A stretch of 64,000 nt of DNA, from positions 124,001 to 188,000 of the forward strand of contig CACEGG010000001.1 of NCBI GenBank assembly GCA_902559035.1, written 5' to 3'. Position 1 is the stretch's first letter. Each line of letters starts with the position of its first letter. The notes below the pieces were generated by a model. That model was not told the DNA's origin, did no database searches, and saw nothing but the letters and a program-made list of their open reading frames with translations. This document shows positions 14,441 through 20,853 of this stretch, piece after piece. The position numbers were made by a program, and so were the translations under genes. The DNA is from an uncultured Bacteroidota bacterium. Lineage in GTDB: Bacteria > Bacteroidota > Bacteroidia > Flavobacteriales > Flavobacteriaceae.

Positions 14441-15748
14441 ATGGGTACTTTTTCTATAAAAGGTGGAGTTAAGCTAAAAGGAGAAGTGATTCCTCAAGGA
14501 GCCAAAAATGAAGCCCTACAAGTAATATGTGCCTGTCTGCTAACAGATAAAAAAGTTATTATTGATAATATTCCTGAAATTATAGATGTTCTTAAATTAA
14601 TTGATTTATTAAAATCACTTGGTGTGAAGGTTAATAAAATTAAAAAGAATAAATATTCTTTTTTAGCTGACAATGTAGACATTGATTATTTACAATCTGA
14701 AGAATTTAAGATAAAAGGAAGTAGTCTTAGGGGTTCAATAATGATTGTTGGCCCCCTTTTAGCTAGATTTGGAAAAGGTTTTATTCCAAAACCTGGTGGT
14801 GATAAAATTGGAAGGCGTAGGCTAGATACTCATTTTTTAGGATTCATTAAATTAGGTGCTTCTTTTAGATACAATAAAGAAGAATATTTTTACGGAGTTG
14901 AAGCGAATGTTTTGAAAGGTGACTATATTCTTCTTGACCAAGCTTCTGTTACAGGTACTGCAAATATTTTAATGGCTGCTGTTCTAGCCAAAGGAAAGAC
15001 AGAAATATATAATGCGGCATGTGAACCTTACATTCAGCAATTGTGTAAAATGTTAATCTCTATGGGTGCCAATATTAAAGGGATAGGCTCAAATTTATTA
15101 ATTATTGAAGGCGTTATGTCTTTGGGTGGAGTAGAGCACAAAGTTTTACCTGACATGATTGAAATTGGAAGTTGGATTGGTTTAGCAGCTATGACAAAAA
15201 GTGAAATAACTATCAAAAATGTTAGTTGGTCAAATCTTGGCCAGATTCCAAATGTTTTTAGGAAATTAGGAATAGAAATTAAAAAAGTAAACGATGATAT
15301 TTTTATTCCTGAGCATAAAAATGGATATGAAATTCAAAATTATATTGATGGTTCTGTTTTAACTGTTTCTGATGCACCTTGGCCTGGCTTTACACCTGAT
15401 TTACTAAGTATTGTTTTAGTCGTTGCTACACAAGCTAGAGGAAGTGTTCTGATTCATCAAAAAATGTTTGAGAGTAGATTATTTTTTGTAGATAAGTTAA
15501 TAGATATGGGTGCCAAAATTATTTTATGTGATCCTCATCGTGCTAATGTTATTGGACACAATTTTAAGTCTCAATTGAAATCCACAACCATGGTATCTCC
15601 AGATATTAGAGCTGGGATATCACTATTAATAGCTGCCCTATCTGCAACTGGTGAGAGCATCATTCATAATATTGAACAAATTGATCGTGGGTATGAAAAT
15701 ATTGATGTAAGGCTAGCTAAACTTGGTGCAAAAATTAAAAGAATTTAA
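14441..15748 (+). CDS. murA: UDP-N-acetylglucosamine 1-carboxyvinyltransferase, Cys-to-Asp type
   Basis: MurA transfers enolpyruvate from PEP to UDP-GlcNAc, the first committed step of peptidoglycan synthesis. The 435-residue EPSP-synthase-fold protein has KLKGEVIPQGAKNEALQ (catalytic Lys/Asn) at the N-terminus, GPLLARFGKGFIPKPGG, and ASVTGTANILMAAVLAKG. The active-site loop reads PGGDKIGRRRLDTH where E. coli has PGGCTIGARPVDLH, so the fosfomycin-target Cys115 is Asp. Asp is known to support activity and give fosfomycin resistance in other bacteria. The stop overlaps the DUF2805 stop (TTAA). Confidence 0.96.
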   Translation: MGTFSIKGGVKLKGEVIPQGAKNEALQVICACLLTDKKVIIDNIPEIIDVLKLIDLLKSLGVKVNKIKKNKYSFLADNVDIDYLQSEEFKIKGSSLRGSIMIVGPLLARFGKGFIPKPGGDKIGRRRLDTHFLGFIKLGASFRYNKEEYFYGVEANVLKGDYILLDQASVTGTANILMAAVLAKGKTEIYNAACEPYIQQLCKMLISMGANIKGIGSNLLIIEGVMSLGGVEHKVLPDMIEIGSWIGLAAMTKSEITIKNVSWSNLGQIPNVFRKLGIEIKKVNDDIFIPEHKNGYEIQNYIDGSVLTVSDAPWPGFTPDLLSIVLVVATQARGSVLIHQKMFESRLFFVDKLIDMGAKIILCDPHRANVIGHNFKSQLKSTTMVSPDIRAGISLLIAALSATGESIIHNIEQIDRGYENIDVRLAKLGAKIKRI

Positions 15749-16020
15749 TTTCTTTTTGATATTTTATTTCCAGTTGATCTTTGTCTGGAACATTTAAATC
15801 TATTTACTGAATCATCTCTAAGTTTGAAATGTTTAGTTTTTCTTCCTTGAACTCTTTTTCTCCAATGTGCAAAGCTTTTAGATTTCATTTCTCTCCTCAT
15901 CAGATCAATTACATTTTTTTCTGTTAATCCAAATTGAAATTTTATTGCCTCAAATGGTGTTCTATCTTCCCAGGCCATCTCTATAACTCTGTCAATTTCA
16001 ATTTGGTTAAGTTTAGTCAT
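15745..16020 (-). CDS. DUF2805 / TIGR03643 family small protein
   Basis: A 91-residue basic protein of the TIGR03643/DUF2805 family, which is found mostly in marine bacteria and has no known role. The conserved core is QIEIDRVIEMAWEDRTPFEA, then IKFQFGLTEKNVIDLMRREM and SKSFAHWRKRVQGRKTKH. The first half resembles a helix-turn-helix and the rest is strongly basic, so nucleic-acid binding is possible but is only inference. It is the last gene of the photolyase cluster; its ATG shares one base with the preceding stop (TAATG). Confidence 0.85.
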   Translation of the reverse strand: MTKLNQIEIDRVIEMAWEDRTPFEAIKFQFGLTEKNVIDLMRREMKSKSFAHWRKRVQGRKTKHFKLRDDSVNRFKCSRQRSTGNKISKRN

Positions 16021-17492
16021 TATAATTCAATTAAAAAATTATGGGCATCCATTAGTAGTTTTTCTTTTTTTAATGAATCCATTTTATCAAAACTACTAAT
16101 CAACATTCTCATTCTCGGATTTTTTTTAAAAAAATCTCTCTGTTTATCCATAAATGACCAAAAAAGTCCATCCCAAATATCACTCCATTCACCTTTTTTA
16201 TAGTCACTCATTTTTATAATATAATTACTACTGCTGATGTAAGGCTTGGTCGACATTAATCCTCCATCTGCAAATTGACTCATTCCATAAACATTAGGAA
16301 CCATGACCCAATCGTACGAATCTATAAATACTTCCATAAACCATTTATATACTTCATCTGGGTCAAACTCACATAAAACCATGAAGTTTCCCAAAATCAT
16401 TAGTCTTTCGATATGATTTCCATATGCACTTTTTTCTACTTTTTTTATCGTATCATCAATTGGATCAATTCCAGTGTTACCTTCATAAAAAGATTTGGGT
16501 ATTTTTCTATCAAAGTTCCAGTAGTTTTTTGTTCTTTCTTCAGAACCTTTCGAAACATAAACACCTCTAATAAATTCTCTCCAACCTATAATTTGTCTTA
16601 TAAATCCCTCTGTAGAGTTAATAGGTATTTTATTTTTTTTATAAAATTCTAATGAGTTTTTTACTACGTATTTTGGATTGAGTAGTCCAGAATTAATAAG
16701 TGGAGACAAAACACTATGATTTATAATAGATTCTCCAATAAGTACAGCATCTTCATAGATACCAAACTCATCAAATCTTGTTTTTAAAAAATCATTAAAC
16801 CATAAACGACTAGATTTAAAATCAGTTGGATATAATTGTATATCATTAATTATTCCAAAATTTTCAGTAAAGTTTTTTTGTACGTAATTAACAGAATCTC
16901 TATAGTTTTCACTTTGCAACTTAGAATAATCAAGAGTCGGAGTTTTTTTATTTTTTGGAAATTTATGCCTATTCATGTCATCATATGTCCATTTACCACC
17001 AACAGGATTTTGATCATTATCTATTAAAATTTTCATTTTTTTTCTTTGACTCTTATAGAATGATGTTTGAAACAATTTTTTTTTCTCTGGATTAAAAAAG
17101 GGTAATAAATCATCATGAGCTGTTAAAAAAAGAGGATTTTCTTCAATATTAATTTTGATATTATTTTTTTTGCATGATTTTTTTATTCTTTTTTCAAGCC
17201 AATTGTCCTCTGGATGATAAATATTAATTTCGGTAACATTTATTTTGTCTAAAAAAATTCTAATGTCTGACTCTTGGTTTTTAGTTTCTATATAAGCAAC
17301 ATCAATTCCTTTGCTGAGTAGATAATTCTCATAATTTTTCATTGAACTTCTGTGAAATACTAGCTTTTGTTTATGAAAATTGAATTGTTTAAAAAATAAA
17401 TGTTCTTCAATTAAATAAGTTTTTTTATTATTTAAAAATAAATTGCTTTCTTCAAAAAGCTGATTGGGAAATATTATATTTATGGAGTTCAA
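16020..17492 (-). CDS. Cryptochrome/photolyase-related protein lacking Fe-S cysteines
   Basis: A member of the deoxyribodipyrimidine-photolyase-related family (PhrB/FeS-BCP-like), about 490 residues. It has an N-terminal Rossmann domain (INIIFPNQLFEES) and the C-terminal FAD-binding region with STEGFIRQIIGWREFIRGVY, YGNHIERLMILGNF and VPNVYGMSQFADGG. Agrobacterium PhrB carries an [4Fe-4S] cluster on four Cys; this whole protein has only two Cys and the CxxC...C insertion is replaced by MSDYKKGEWSDIWDG. Start: the track ATG (17525) overlaps phr by 37 bases; a TTG at 17492 overlaps the phr stop as TTGA and fits the family N-terminus better. Substrate (6-4 photoproduct, single-stranded DNA, or signalling) is open. 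Confidence 0.85.
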   Translation of the reverse strand: MNSINIIFPNQLFEESNLFLNNKKTYLIEEHLFFKQFNFHKQKLVFHRSSMKNYENYLLSKGIDVAYIETKNQESDIRIFLDKINVTEINIYHPEDNWLEKRIKKSCKKNNIKINIEENPLFLTAHDDLLPFFNPEKKKLFQTSFYKSQRKKMKILIDNDQNPVGGKWTYDDMNRHKFPKNKKTPTLDYSKLQSENYRDSVNYVQKNFTENFGIINDIQLYPTDFKSSRLWFNDFLKTRFDEFGIYEDAVLIGESIINHSVLSPLINSGLLNPKYVVKNSLEFYKKNKIPINSTEGFIRQIIGWREFIRGVYVSKGSEERTKNYWNFDRKIPKSFYEGNTGIDPIDDTIKKVEKSAYGNHIERLMILGNFMVLCEFDPDEVYKWFMEVFIDSYDWVMVPNVYGMSQFADGGLMSTKPYISSSNYIIKMSDYKKGEWSDIWDGLFWSFMDKQRDFFKKNPRMRMLISSFDKMDSLKKEKLLMDAHNFLIEL

Positions 17493-18787
17493 TTGTTTAA
17501 AGCTTTTTTGTAAGTGATTAAACATCTTTCTCTTGCATATTTGTGATCTATTATTTCTTTTGCATAATCAGAATTTTTATATTCAGGAACCCATTTTTTT
17601 ATGTAGGTAAAATTTTTATCAAACTTTTTGATTTGCTCATGTGGATTAAATATTCTAAAATATGGTGCTGCATCAACTCCGCAACCAGCAACCCATTGCC
17701 AATTACCTACATTGCTTGCAGTCTCGTAATCGAAAAGTTTTTCTCTAAAATATGCTTCACCCCATCTCCAGTCTATTAATAAATGTTTGCACAAAAAACT
17801 TCCCACTAGCATTCTAACTCTATTATGCATAAAACCAGTATTATTTAATTCTCTCATTCCTGCATCAACGAACGGGTATCCAGTTTCACCATTACACCAT
17901 TTTTTAAAATCTTCTTCATTATTTATCCATTCAATTCTATCATACTTCGGTTTAAAACTTTTAGTTATTGTTTCTGGAAAATGATATAAAATTTGTTGAA
18001 AAAACTCTCTCCAAATTAATTCTTTTAAGTAAGTATTGTTATTTGATTGACTTGCTTTTTGTATTAATTTTCTTGTGCTAATAGTTCCAAATCTTAATTT
18101 GACTCCTGCTTTTGATGTAGCATCTAGTGAAGGGAAATTTCTTGTTGATTCATAGTTATCTATAATTTTTTCAGATATATTAGTTTTAAGAAAATTAATA
18201 TTAGATCTTATTAAGCTTATTTTACTACTAAATGGAATTGTATTTATATCAATAAAATTATCAATAAGCTTTTCAGAATTATACTCTTGAACTCCTAACT
18301 CATTCATTTTTTTTATCCATTTTTTAGAATAAGGAGTATATACTCTGTAGGGAGAACCGTCATCCTTAGTTATTTCGTTTTTTTCAAATAACACATGGTC
18401 TTTGAAATCAATAAATTCAATATTATTATCAATTAAAAACTTACTAATAGATGTATCTCTTTTTTTTGAGTAAGGTGTATAGTCTCTGTTAGTATAGACT
18501 TTATTTATTCTGTATTTTTTAATTAGTTCAGAAAAAACATCGATAGGTTTACCCTCCAGACAGTGTATTGATTTATTATTTTTTTGCAATACTACGTTCA
18601 TTTTCTCTATGGACTGATTAATGTAAAATAGTCTGTGATCGTTTTCTTTTAATTTGCTAATGATGTTATGATCATAAATGAAAATAGGTAATACTGGGTG
18701 ATCATTGTTTAGTGCATGAAATAGTCCACAGTTATCATCTAATCTTAGATCTCTTCTAAACCAAAATATGGATATTTTTTTATTCAA
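17489..18787 (-). CDS. Deoxyribodipyrimidine photolyase (class I cryptochrome/photolyase)
   Basis: A 432-residue blue-light repair enzyme that would split cyclobutane pyrimidine dimers using FADH. The antenna domain begins KKISIFWFRRDLRLDDN. The FAD domain contains LKELIWREFFQQILYHFPE, ETGYPFVDAGMRELNNTGFM and HNRVRMLVGSFLCKHLLIDW, then SNVGNWQWVAGCGVDAAPYF. Tryptophans equivalent to the E. coli electron-transfer triad appear present (KKWCNG, LIDWRW, VGNWQW). The start is TTG and directly abuts the stop of the SDR gene (TAATTG). A cryptochrome function cannot be excluded. Confidence 0.92.
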   Translation of the reverse strand: MNKKISIFWFRRDLRLDDNCGLFHALNNDHPVLPIFIYDHNIISKLKENDHRLFYINQSIEKMNVVLQKNNKSIHCLEGKPIDVFSELIKKYRINKVYTNRDYTPYSKKRDTSISKFLIDNNIEFIDFKDHVLFEKNEITKDDGSPYRVYTPYSKKWIKKMNELGVQEYNSEKLIDNFIDINTIPFSSKISLIRSNINFLKTNISEKIIDNYESTRNFPSLDATSKAGVKLRFGTISTRKLIQKASQSNNNTYLKELIWREFFQQILYHFPETITKSFKPKYDRIEWINNEEDFKKWCNGETGYPFVDAGMRELNNTGFMHNRVRMLVGSFLCKHLLIDWRWGEAYFREKLFDYETASNVGNWQWVAGCGVDAAPYFRIFNPHEQIKKFDKNFTYIKKWVPEYKNSDYAKEIIDHKYARERCLITYKKALNN

Positions 18788-19486
18788 TTATCCAAGATTA
18801 ATAATTGACATGCCACCATCTACACCAAATGTTTGACCAGTAACCCAAGAACTTTTATCACTTAATAAAAAGGCAGTTGAATTTGCGATATCGACAGGGC
18901 TTCCACACCTTTTTAATGGATGTCTTTCACCAGCTTTTTCTTTTTTTAAATCATTGTTTAGGAATCTTGATGCCATTGGAGTATCAGTCAATGATGGCGC
19001 TATTACATTTACTCTAATGTTGGGTGCATATTCAGCAGCCAAGGATCTTGCAAAGCCTTCAATAGCACCTTTAGAAGCAGAAACACTAGTATGAAACGGC
19101 ATCCCTACCTTGACAGCTACTGTGCTATATAAAACTATACTTGAATTTCCAGATTTTTTTAAGTTATTAATTACTTTCTGTAAAATTTTAACCATGGATA
19201 GAAAATTAATATTTAGATCTTCTTCAAAAGTTGTAGATTTAATACTTCTAAATGGTCTTAAATTTATACTTCCAGGTAAATAAACAAAACCATGTAATTC
19301 CTCAGGTACCAATTCATCATTAAAATCTGAAGCAATTGCATCATATTGTATATGATTTACATTTAAATCTTTTAAATTTTCTTTATTTCTTGAGGCTACA
19401 TAAACATTATAGTCATGTTGAACAAGTCTTATTGTTTCTAATCCTATTCCAGTTGATCCACCGATAAATAATATATTTTTTTTCAT
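18788..19486 (-). CDS. SDR-family protein without the catalytic tyrosine
   Basis: A 232-residue short-chain dehydrogenase/reductase fold. The nucleotide-binding turn ILFIGGSTGIGLETIRL is intact, a serine lies in SSIVLYSTVAVKVGMPFH, and the C-terminal GQTFGVDGGM is typical. The YxxxK active site reads VSASK, so the proton-donating Tyr is Val while the Lys stays. In my recollection the SDRs next to photolyase genes share this loss. It may bind NAD(P) without redox chemistry or act by another residue. I start at MKKNILFIGG (19486), 4 bp after the SRPBCC stop; an ATG at 19504 is also possible. Confidence 0.85.
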   Translation of the reverse strand: MKKNILFIGGSTGIGLETIRLVQHDYNVYVASRNKENLKDLNVNHIQYDAIASDFNDELVPEELHGFVYLPGSINLRPFRSIKSTTFEEDLNINFLSMVKILQKVINNLKKSGNSSIVLYSTVAVKVGMPFHTSVSASKGAIEGFARSLAAEYAPNIRVNVIAPSLTDTPMASRFLNNDLKKEKAGERHPLKRCGSPVDIANSTAFLLSDKSSWVTGQTFGVDGGMSIINLG

Positions 19487-19490
19487 TGCT

Positions 19491-19952
19491 TTAAAGTTTT
19501 CCAAAAAGTTGGTTAAGTTTATTTTCTCTAAATTGAAATATTAGTTTTAGTTTATTTTTAACAAAAATTGGATGTGCCAATTGTCCTAAAATACCAAAAG
19601 GTAGTTTATAATCAACAATGTCAACCATTTCTATTCCTCCATCAATTTCTTTAATAAAATGTTTGTGGTGCCAAAGAGAATATGGACCAAACCTTTGCTC
19701 ATCAACGAAGTACTCTTTATCTACTACATGAGTAATTTCGGTAACCCATTTAAGATTTAATCCTAGTATAGGACTAACTTTGTATTGAATTATTTGACCG
19801 GGGAAAATTTTTTTGTCAGCGCCACTCAATATTCGAAAATTCATGTATGCGGGCGTTATTTCAGTAAGATTTTTTGGGTTACTTAAAAAATTCCAAGCTT
19901 TTTCAATAGTTATTGGAAGTTTTTGACTTGTTTTAATTTGATATAATTTCAA
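19491..19952 (-). CDS. SRPBCC (polyketide-cyclase-like) protein
   Basis: A helix-grip SRPBCC protein of about 153 residues, the first gene of the photolyase cluster. It contains QKLPITIEKAWNFLSNPKNL, ITPAYMNFRILSG, VTEITHVVDKEYFVDEQRFG and the hydrophobic MVDIVDYKLPFGILGQLAHP. Relatives bind hydrophobic ligands; the ligand here is unknown. The track's start (19991) is a TTG that would add 13 residues; a TTG at 19952 gives the family-like N-terminus MKLYQIKTSQKLPI and leaves a 49-bp divergent promoter gap to the DUF2911 gene. Confidence 0.8.
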   Translation of the reverse strand: MKLYQIKTSQKLPITIEKAWNFLSNPKNLTEITPAYMNFRILSGADKKIFPGQIIQYKVSPILGLNLKWVTEITHVVDKEYFVDEQRFGPYSLWHHKHFIKEIDGGIEMVDIVDYKLPFGILGQLAHPIFVKNKLKLIFQFRENKLNQLFGKL

Positions 19953-20001
19953 TTTTTTAAATTTATTTATAACTTTCAAAAAGTATACCAACCTTTAAAT
20001 C

Positions 20002-20853
20002 ATGAAAAAAAAATCATTTCTTCTATTATTGTCCCTAATTATTGTAACATCATCCTTCGCACAACTAAAATCTCCTAACGCAAGTCCAAGATCAAATATT
20101 TCACAAATCATTGGTCTTGTTAGTATAAATCTAGATTATTCGAGACCCTCAAAAAAAAGTAGAGAAATTTTTGGTGGTTTAGTTCCATATAATAAAATTT
20201 GGAGAACAGGAGCAAATAATCCAACAACTATTTCATTTTCTGATTATGTAAAAATTAATGATCAATTGATTAGTGCTGGCGAATATCACTTGTACTCTGT
20301 CCCAACAGAATCAACACTAGATTTAGTTATTTACGAAAAAACTGATGCATGGGGTTCACTTCCCACTTTTGATAAATCTAAAGTGATAGCAAGGGTATCA
20401 AGCGATTTTATTGATTTGCCAAACACTGTAGAAACATTTACAATTTCTTTTGAAAATATTTCTAATAATGGTTCAACTCTTAATATAATGTGGGATAATA
20501 AATTAGCTGTATATAATATTGATGCTTTAACTAAAGATAAGATGATTAATAACATTAATAATGTAATGAATAATAATCCATCCTCCAATGATTACAGTAG
20601 AGCAGCCATGTACTACTTTGAAGAAGATATTGATATTGAAAAAGCAATGGAATGGATTAATAAAGCATATAAAGATTCTGATAATTTAAGATATTGGCAT
20701 TTAAGATATAAAGCATTGATTTATGAAAAAGCAGGTAAATTAAATAAAGCATTAGAGTACGCAGAAAGTGGATATAAAAGGGCAATAGAAAGTAAAGCAG
20801 TAGACGGAATAAATAGTTTAGAAATTATTTACAGGAGACTAAGTGAAAAATAA
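20002..20853 (+). CDS. DUF2911 domain protein, exported
   Basis: A 283-residue periplasmic or envelope protein with a signal peptide (KKSFLLLLSLIIVTSSFAQ). The DUF2911 beta-sandwich spans about residues 22-170 and is recognised by SPRSNISQIIGLVSINLDYS, the core FGGLVPYNKIWRTGANNPTT and SAGEYHLYSVPTE. A TPR-like helical tail follows (EKAMEWINKAYKDSD, AGKLNKALEYAESGY). DUF2911 is widespread in Bacteroidota and uncharacterised. It is divergent from the photolyase cluster and converges on the symporter with a 3-bp gap. Confidence 0.88.
   Translation: MKKKSFLLLLSLIIVTSSFAQLKSPNASPRSNISQIIGLVSINLDYSRPSKKSREIFGGLVPYNKIWRTGANNPTTISFSDYVKINDQLISAGEYHLYSVPTESTLDLVIYEKTDAWGSLPTFDKSKVIARVSSDFIDLPNTVETFTISFENISNNGSTLNIMWDNKLAVYNIDALTKDKMINNINNVMNNNPSSNDYSRAAMYYFEEDIDIEKAMEWINKAYKDSDNLRYWHLRYKALIYEKAGKLNKALEYAESGYKRAIESKAVDGINSLEIIYRRLSEK

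Follow-up and report, generated by a model that had tools for sequence, protein, structure and literature searches.

The window analysed here is a stretch of 64,000 nucleotides (G000:C1:124001-188000) from a 1.58 Mb genome that is 88.6% complete. It contains five consecutive same-strand open reading frames (ORFs) on the minus strand, running from 19952 to 15745 and encoding, in 5′ to 3′ order, an SRPBCC protein, an SDR-like protein, a class I-type photolyase, a photolyase-related protein (DPRP) and a DUF2805 protein. These genes form one translationally coupled unit. It is probably an operon for the photoreactivation of both main UV lesions, in which DUF2805 would be a repair accessory and the SRPBCC and SDR proteins a light-stress arm under shared regulation. 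Most worth following up is the link of DUF2805 and DUF2256 to the prokaryotic (6-4) photolyase, the family to which DPRP is assigned: both domains track this photolyase genome-wide. The five genes are:

19491..19952, minus strand: SRPBCC protein (helix-grip/START-like), 153 aa, TTG start, first gene of the unit
18788..19486, minus strand: SDR-like protein, 232 aa, ATG start
17489..18787, minus strand: class I-type photolyase, predicted to act on cyclobutane pyrimidine dimers (CPD), 432 aa, TTG start, PF00875 and PF03441
16020..17492, minus strand: DPRP, by family a prokaryotic (6-4) photolyase of the iron-sulfur-free type, 490 aa, TTG start
15745..16020, minus strand: DUF2805 (TIGR03643) protein, 91 aa, helical core and conserved basic tail

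A first-pass annotation had described this cluster with junctions of 4 bp, no gap, a TTGA overlap and a TAATG overlap, and re-reading the sequence bears out each of them. The SRPBCC stop codon is followed after 4 bp by the SDR ATG at 19486, and the SDR TAA is followed directly by the photolyase TTG at 18787. TTGA is common to the photolyase end and the DPRP start, and TAATG to the DPRP and DUF2805 genes. The ORF list places the DPRP start at an ATG at 17525, which would mean a 37 bp overlap; because relatives start near the TTG at 17492, we take that TTG as the start. The same five genes occur in the same order in L183, from the marine relative Flavobacteriales MED779, where adjoining genes are no more than 2 bp apart or overlap by 1-4 bp. 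The proteins of the two loci are 66-73% identical, so the tight coupling is conserved rather than due to chance.

Next, we looked for the five families in 80 named loci of up to about 16 kb each, fetched with the DUF2805 profile and all Bacteroidota by title except for one metagenome-assembled genome titled Sphingomonadales. All five families are found within 16 kb in 21 of them and four families in 11. For example, Polaribacter, Algibacter, Winogradskyella and others have an operon with flavin reductase, DUF2867, cry-DASH, DPRP, a cryptochrome-like protein, DUF2805, FolE, SDR, TspO, SRPBCC and a photolyase, the last of which is the ortholog of the window photolyase (about 60% identity). In a class sample of 247 genomes from 68 families, the complete set is also found in reshuffled order in L078 (family f42) and L106 (family f38), which belong to two unrelated Bacteroidota families of other orders. 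The annotation had thus rightly expected similar neighbourhoods in marine bacteria, and they extend to other bacteria as well.

The class sample holds 90 DPRP loci in 32 families. Within 4 kb of DPRP and on the same strand, we found a photolyase in 39 loci (21 families), DUF2805 in 22 (18 families), an SDR in 22 (13 families), a flavin reductase in 17 (10 families), a short photolyase-like protein in 16 (11 families) and SRPBCC in 8 (5 families). Some DPRP loci also have carotenoid genes, an extracytoplasmic function sigma factor or, as in L106, a MerR/B12 protein. Over and above the window's five families, the clusters of relatives contain cry-DASH, flavin reductase, GTP cyclohydrolase I, TspO, carotenoid genes and LitR-like MerR/B12 regulators. 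Accordingly, the window unit is a compact variant of a known light-induced photolyase cluster, and this content supports the earlier suggestion that the unit belongs to a larger light or UV gene set.

The two photolyase-type proteins are distinct. The class I-type photolyase has both expected domains (PF00875, 3e-40; PF03441, 5.8e-73) and may be class I or class III, with scores of 340 bits for TIGR03556 (cut-off 884.6) and 296 bits for PRK10674 (cut-off 506). DPRP has the PF04244 N-terminal domain (2.4e-50) and a helical FAD domain. Its nearest solved structure is PhrB (PDB match over residues 48-496, E = 1e-73). In an alignment of 90 class members, four columns are cysteine in the same 51 proteins and in none of the other 39, and the topology of a midpoint-rooted FastTree tree keeps these two sets apart. 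The window protein falls in the cluster-free set, with P355, K443 or a gap, a gap, and D449 at the positions of the four iron-sulfur (Fe-S) cysteines. All 90 proteins keep the equivalents of PhrB H366, Y424 and Y430 unchanged (H371, Y429 and Y435 in the window, numbered from the ATG at 17525). The 39 cluster-free proteins all have Phe in place of PhrB Y391, and 24 of them have Tyr in place of W342.

Judged by these residues, DPRP belongs to a deep clade that lacks all four cysteines and keeps the catalytic residues. This is a known type, since cluster-free prokaryotic (6-4) photolyases, PromaPL and 'subgroup M', have already been described (PMC9178010; PMC9426592; PMC12082625). By family membership, the window protein is probably a (6-4) photolyase. 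The clade (39 of the 90 sampled DPRPs) offers many natural enzymes for probing what the cluster does. In another genome, part of a second DPRP gene, broken by internal stops (G129:C137:36573-36818), lies about 2.7 kb from an intact copy.

The window DUF2805 protein scores well above both curated cut-offs for PF10985/TIGR03643 (122.7 bits, cut-off 22.5; 118.3 bits, cut-off 66.55). Of the 247 class genomes, 94 carry DUF2805 and 92 carry DPRP, with 79 carrying the two together (odds ratio 57, p = 6e-35, Fisher test). At the family level, DUF2805 is found in 34, DPRP in 33 and both in 30 of the 68 families (p = 2e-11). DUF2256 is present in 96 genomes, 84 of which have DPRP (p = 1e-42), and 77 genomes carry all three. 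Among genomes with a photolyase-domain match, DUF2805 is found in 79 of 92 (86%) with DPRP compared to 14 of 74 (19%) without; PF03441 weakly matches DPRP, so DPRP carriers may be photolyase-positive by construction, yet the 74 remain a fair reference group. As a comparator, AlkB (PF13532) gives an odds ratio of only 8 with DUF2805. Fisher tests ignore shared ancestry, to which the family-level count is a partial answer, as is a second sample from other Bacteroidota classes, in which 35 of 37 DUF2805 genomes have DPRP and no DUF2805-DPRP pair was found within 20 kb.

The annotation had proposed a neighbourhood search as a check, and the search found DUF2805 and DPRP co-located in 24 genomes from 19 families of the class. 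The pattern that it named as support for a system, all five families co-located across distant phyla, was not found: the full five were seen in Bacteroidota only. Across phyla, the only adjacency seen is that of DUF2805, DUF2256 and DPRP on two Acinetobacter plasmids (L242, L245), where DUF2805 faces an adjacent DUF2256-DPRP pair. These plasmids are mobilizable and thus carry a photorepair set able to move. No DPRP is annotated near DUF2805 on the Vibrio, Pseudoalteromonas and Nostoc plasmids examined, and no DUF2805 was found in phage genomes. The window's own genome has an unlinked DUF2256 gene (L252:9070-9228) on contig G000:C8. Inspection showed that many cluster-free genomes carry DUF2256 too, and we rejected the idea that DUF2256 pairs only with the Fe-S type of DPRP. 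Tandem duplicates of the DUF2805 gene are found in L177, L181, L188, L191 and L193, mostly titled Flavobacterium.

DUF2805 also has a second kind of neighbour. The named loci include 33 with no photolyase match, many of them from Flavobacteriaceae with DUF2805 downstream of an AlkB-type 2-oxoglutarate-Fe(II) oxygenase gene, several with 4 bp overlaps. Counted over all loci, AlkB lies upstream of DUF2805 on the same strand and within 1.5 kb in 17 (Flavobacteriaceae), two of which (L153, L154) carry a divergent DUF2805 paralogue. In L300 (4511-5382), from another class, DUF2805 overlaps a downstream AlkB gene, followed by SelR. We also note overlaps between DUF2805 and AlkB-type oxygenase genes at L169:7393-8258, which has a convergent S1/P1 nuclease gene, and L190:7393-8255. 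The divergent paralogue (about 75-84 bits; L151-L154) comes from one genus of the window genome's own family, sits in some cases beside AlkB, and is often found in genomes without DPRP.

Photolyases and AlkB are unrelated, yet both reverse damage directly and flip a base. Because DUF2805 adjoins both, we read it as an accessory of direct reversal, most likely a small protein that binds nucleic acid and would assist this kind of DNA repair, above all that by the prokaryotic (6-4) photolyase. More tentatively, DUF2805, together with DUF2256, might be a dedicated tiny DNA-binding helper of direct-reversal enzymes that flip bases: prokaryotic (6-4) photolyases for the most part, and AlkB in certain lineages. 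Such a helper could for example load them on damaged DNA or distort that DNA. The AlphaFold2 (AF2) model of DUF2805 (pLDDT 79.8) is all-helical (H5-16, H22-29, H33-43, H46-56) with a low-confidence tail, and the family shows very high conservation of the entire protein including the basic tail. Sequence searches of DUF2805 and SRPBCC against the PDB gave no match.

The remaining two proteins probably do not repair DNA. The SDR-like protein matches PF13561/PF00106 and keeps the Rossmann glycine motif, while the Tyr of its YxxxK motif is replaced by Val135; His132 and Lys139 are kept. In an alignment of the window protein with 66 homologs, 64 of the 67 have Val, Ile, Met or Thr at this position, 66 of 67 retain the Lys, and 60 of the 64 have a His three positions ahead of the missing Tyr. 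With its catalytic Tyr lost, the protein does not qualify as a canonical SDR reductase; it may catalyse through another residue or serve in binding. These operon-type SDRs (the window protein and homologs in L061-L240) make up a Tyr-less SDR subgroup. SRPBCC gives a sub-threshold Pfam match to the polyketide-cyclase/SRPBCC family (21.6 bits compared to 23.4), and the fold match of its AF2 model (pLDDT 90.9; Foldseek probability 1.00 to START and Bet v 1-like structures) confirms a predicted helix-grip fold. In relatives, the genes that accompany SRPBCC and SDR include those for carotenoids, pterin (FolE) and TspO.

We favour a model in which the unit would act as one photoreactivation operon of a small-genome, rhodopsin-bearing marine flavobacterium. 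Cyclobutane pyrimidine dimers would be the substrate of the class I-type photolyase and (6-4) photoproducts that of the Fe-S-free DPRP, both repaired via light-driven electron transfer from FAD, with DUF2805 as the accessory chiefly of the latter. SRPBCC and the Tyr-less SDR would bind or handle a hydrophobic small molecule rather than repair DNA.

Several observations weigh against this model. DUF2805 is absent from DPRP-bearing Caulobacter, Synechococcus elongatus and Haloferax controls, and DPRP-bearing Rhizobium plasmids give no match to it; it is therefore not essential to the DPRP enzyme. Some genomes have DUF2805 and no DPRP, and the AlkB adjacency in Flavobacteriaceae may be one inherited locus. 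A fold search of DUF2805 against the PDB gave no significant match, and 24 of 58 members weakly match a helix-turn-helix (HTH) family (best E = 0.0015), which is compatible with nucleic-acid binding and no proof of it. Moreover, no LitR/CarH-type regulator and no match to the B12-binding domain (PF02310) were found in the genome at 88.6% completeness, only one short MerR ORF of 113 aa, so light control of the unit is only presumed.

The HTH matches, the helical model and the frequent position beside photolyase genes would also suit an HTH-like transcription regulator of light or UV genes. We regard this as unlikely: such conservation of the whole protein and its basic tail is unusual for a specific regulator, the co-occurrence with DPRP holds where the genes are not adjacent, and DUF2805 is the last gene of the window operon. 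DUF2805 might instead have a role on RNA or in translation when cells are stressed by light. A precedent in light-responsive operons is RudS, which removes tRNA 4-thiouridine (PMC11417400). The conserved basic tail fits this idea, as does the grouping of its abundance with translation domains in Global Ocean Sampling metagenomes (PMC3597751). Nonetheless, that correlation concerns abundance only and the neighbours are direct-reversal enzymes of DNA, which makes a role on RNA rather improbable.

For the unit as a whole, DPRP could be a blue-light signalling cryptochrome and the operon mainly a light-sensing pathway, given that R. sphaeroides CryB of the same group regulates gene expression (PMC9178010) and that the electron-transfer Tyr391 and W342 are replaced as described above. 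The invariance of the three residues taken as catalytic and the description of cluster-free PromaPL as a (6-4) photolyase leave this quite improbable. We already disfavour, as very improbable indeed, a neutral cluster inherited among close relatives with no shared function. The exact five-gene unit is seen only in the window and L183, and most full sets are from Flavobacteriaceae; against this, gene order differs in f42 and f38, co-occurrence extends across classes without linkage, and tight coupling is kept at about 70% identity.

The unit is flanked by the following features:

19953..20001: divergent intergenic region of 49 bp upstream of the unit, presumably the promoter region
20002-20853, plus strand: divergent neighbour, DUF2911 gene (domain scan)
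14441-15748: murA, convergent neighbour, overlapping the 3′ end of the unit by 4 bp (15745-15748)

Control by LitR in the window organism was considered and rejected, as no LitR-type regulator was found in its 88.6% complete genome; the relative L106 has a protein with MerR and B12-binding_2 domains at the locus. No usable light-transcriptome study of flavobacteria was found in the open-access literature. Contig G000:C8 also has a rhodopsin fragment at its end (L253:2-517), beside a lycopene-cyclase-like ORF.

The usual description of a photolyase is of a repair machine made of a single protein. If a small protein follows one class of photolyase throughout a phylum, with or without linkage, and is also a neighbour of AlkB, it would be a candidate accessory factor in direct reversal. 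DUF2805 and DUF2256, both of unknown function, thereby get a concrete hypothesis. What is new here is this tracking of the (6-4) photolyase by DUF2805 and DUF2256, the position of DUF2805 beside AlkB and the SDR tyrosine loss. In the parts seen of open-access papers naming DUF2805 or DUF2256, no tie of either domain to photorepair was found.

Known systems resemble parts of the unit. PromaPL and marine Synechococcus Phr2 ('subgroup M', PMC9178010) share the DPRP domain and the lack of cluster cysteines, whereas the window protein is from a Bacteroidota clade and shares its operon with a class I-type photolyase. The FeS-BCP group (PhrB, CryB, Cc(6-4)PL) shares a near full-length match to PhrB and the active-site His/Tyr/Tyr, and differs by the four cysteines, Y391 to Phe and W342 to Tyr. 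The light-induced LitR/PplR regulon of Pseudomonas contains phrB, a short-chain dehydrogenase, an FAD oxidoreductase, UfaM, CryB (cryptochrome/photolyase family) and FolE (PMC9758184). It is polycistronic, with start and stop codons overlapping or close, and its pairing of phrB with a short-chain dehydrogenase speaks against the earlier view that the SDR has no link to known photorepair. Unlike this regulon, the window unit has SRPBCC and DUF2805, lacks UfaM, the FAD oxidoreductase and FolE, and lies in a genome without LitR. Finally, the UV-B-inducible operon of Synechococcus PCC 7335 (PMC9649867) has two overlapping photolyase genes proposed to cover both UV lesions, but its second enzyme is PhrSph98-like and bifunctional, and it consists of two genes without SDR, SRPBCC or DUF2805.

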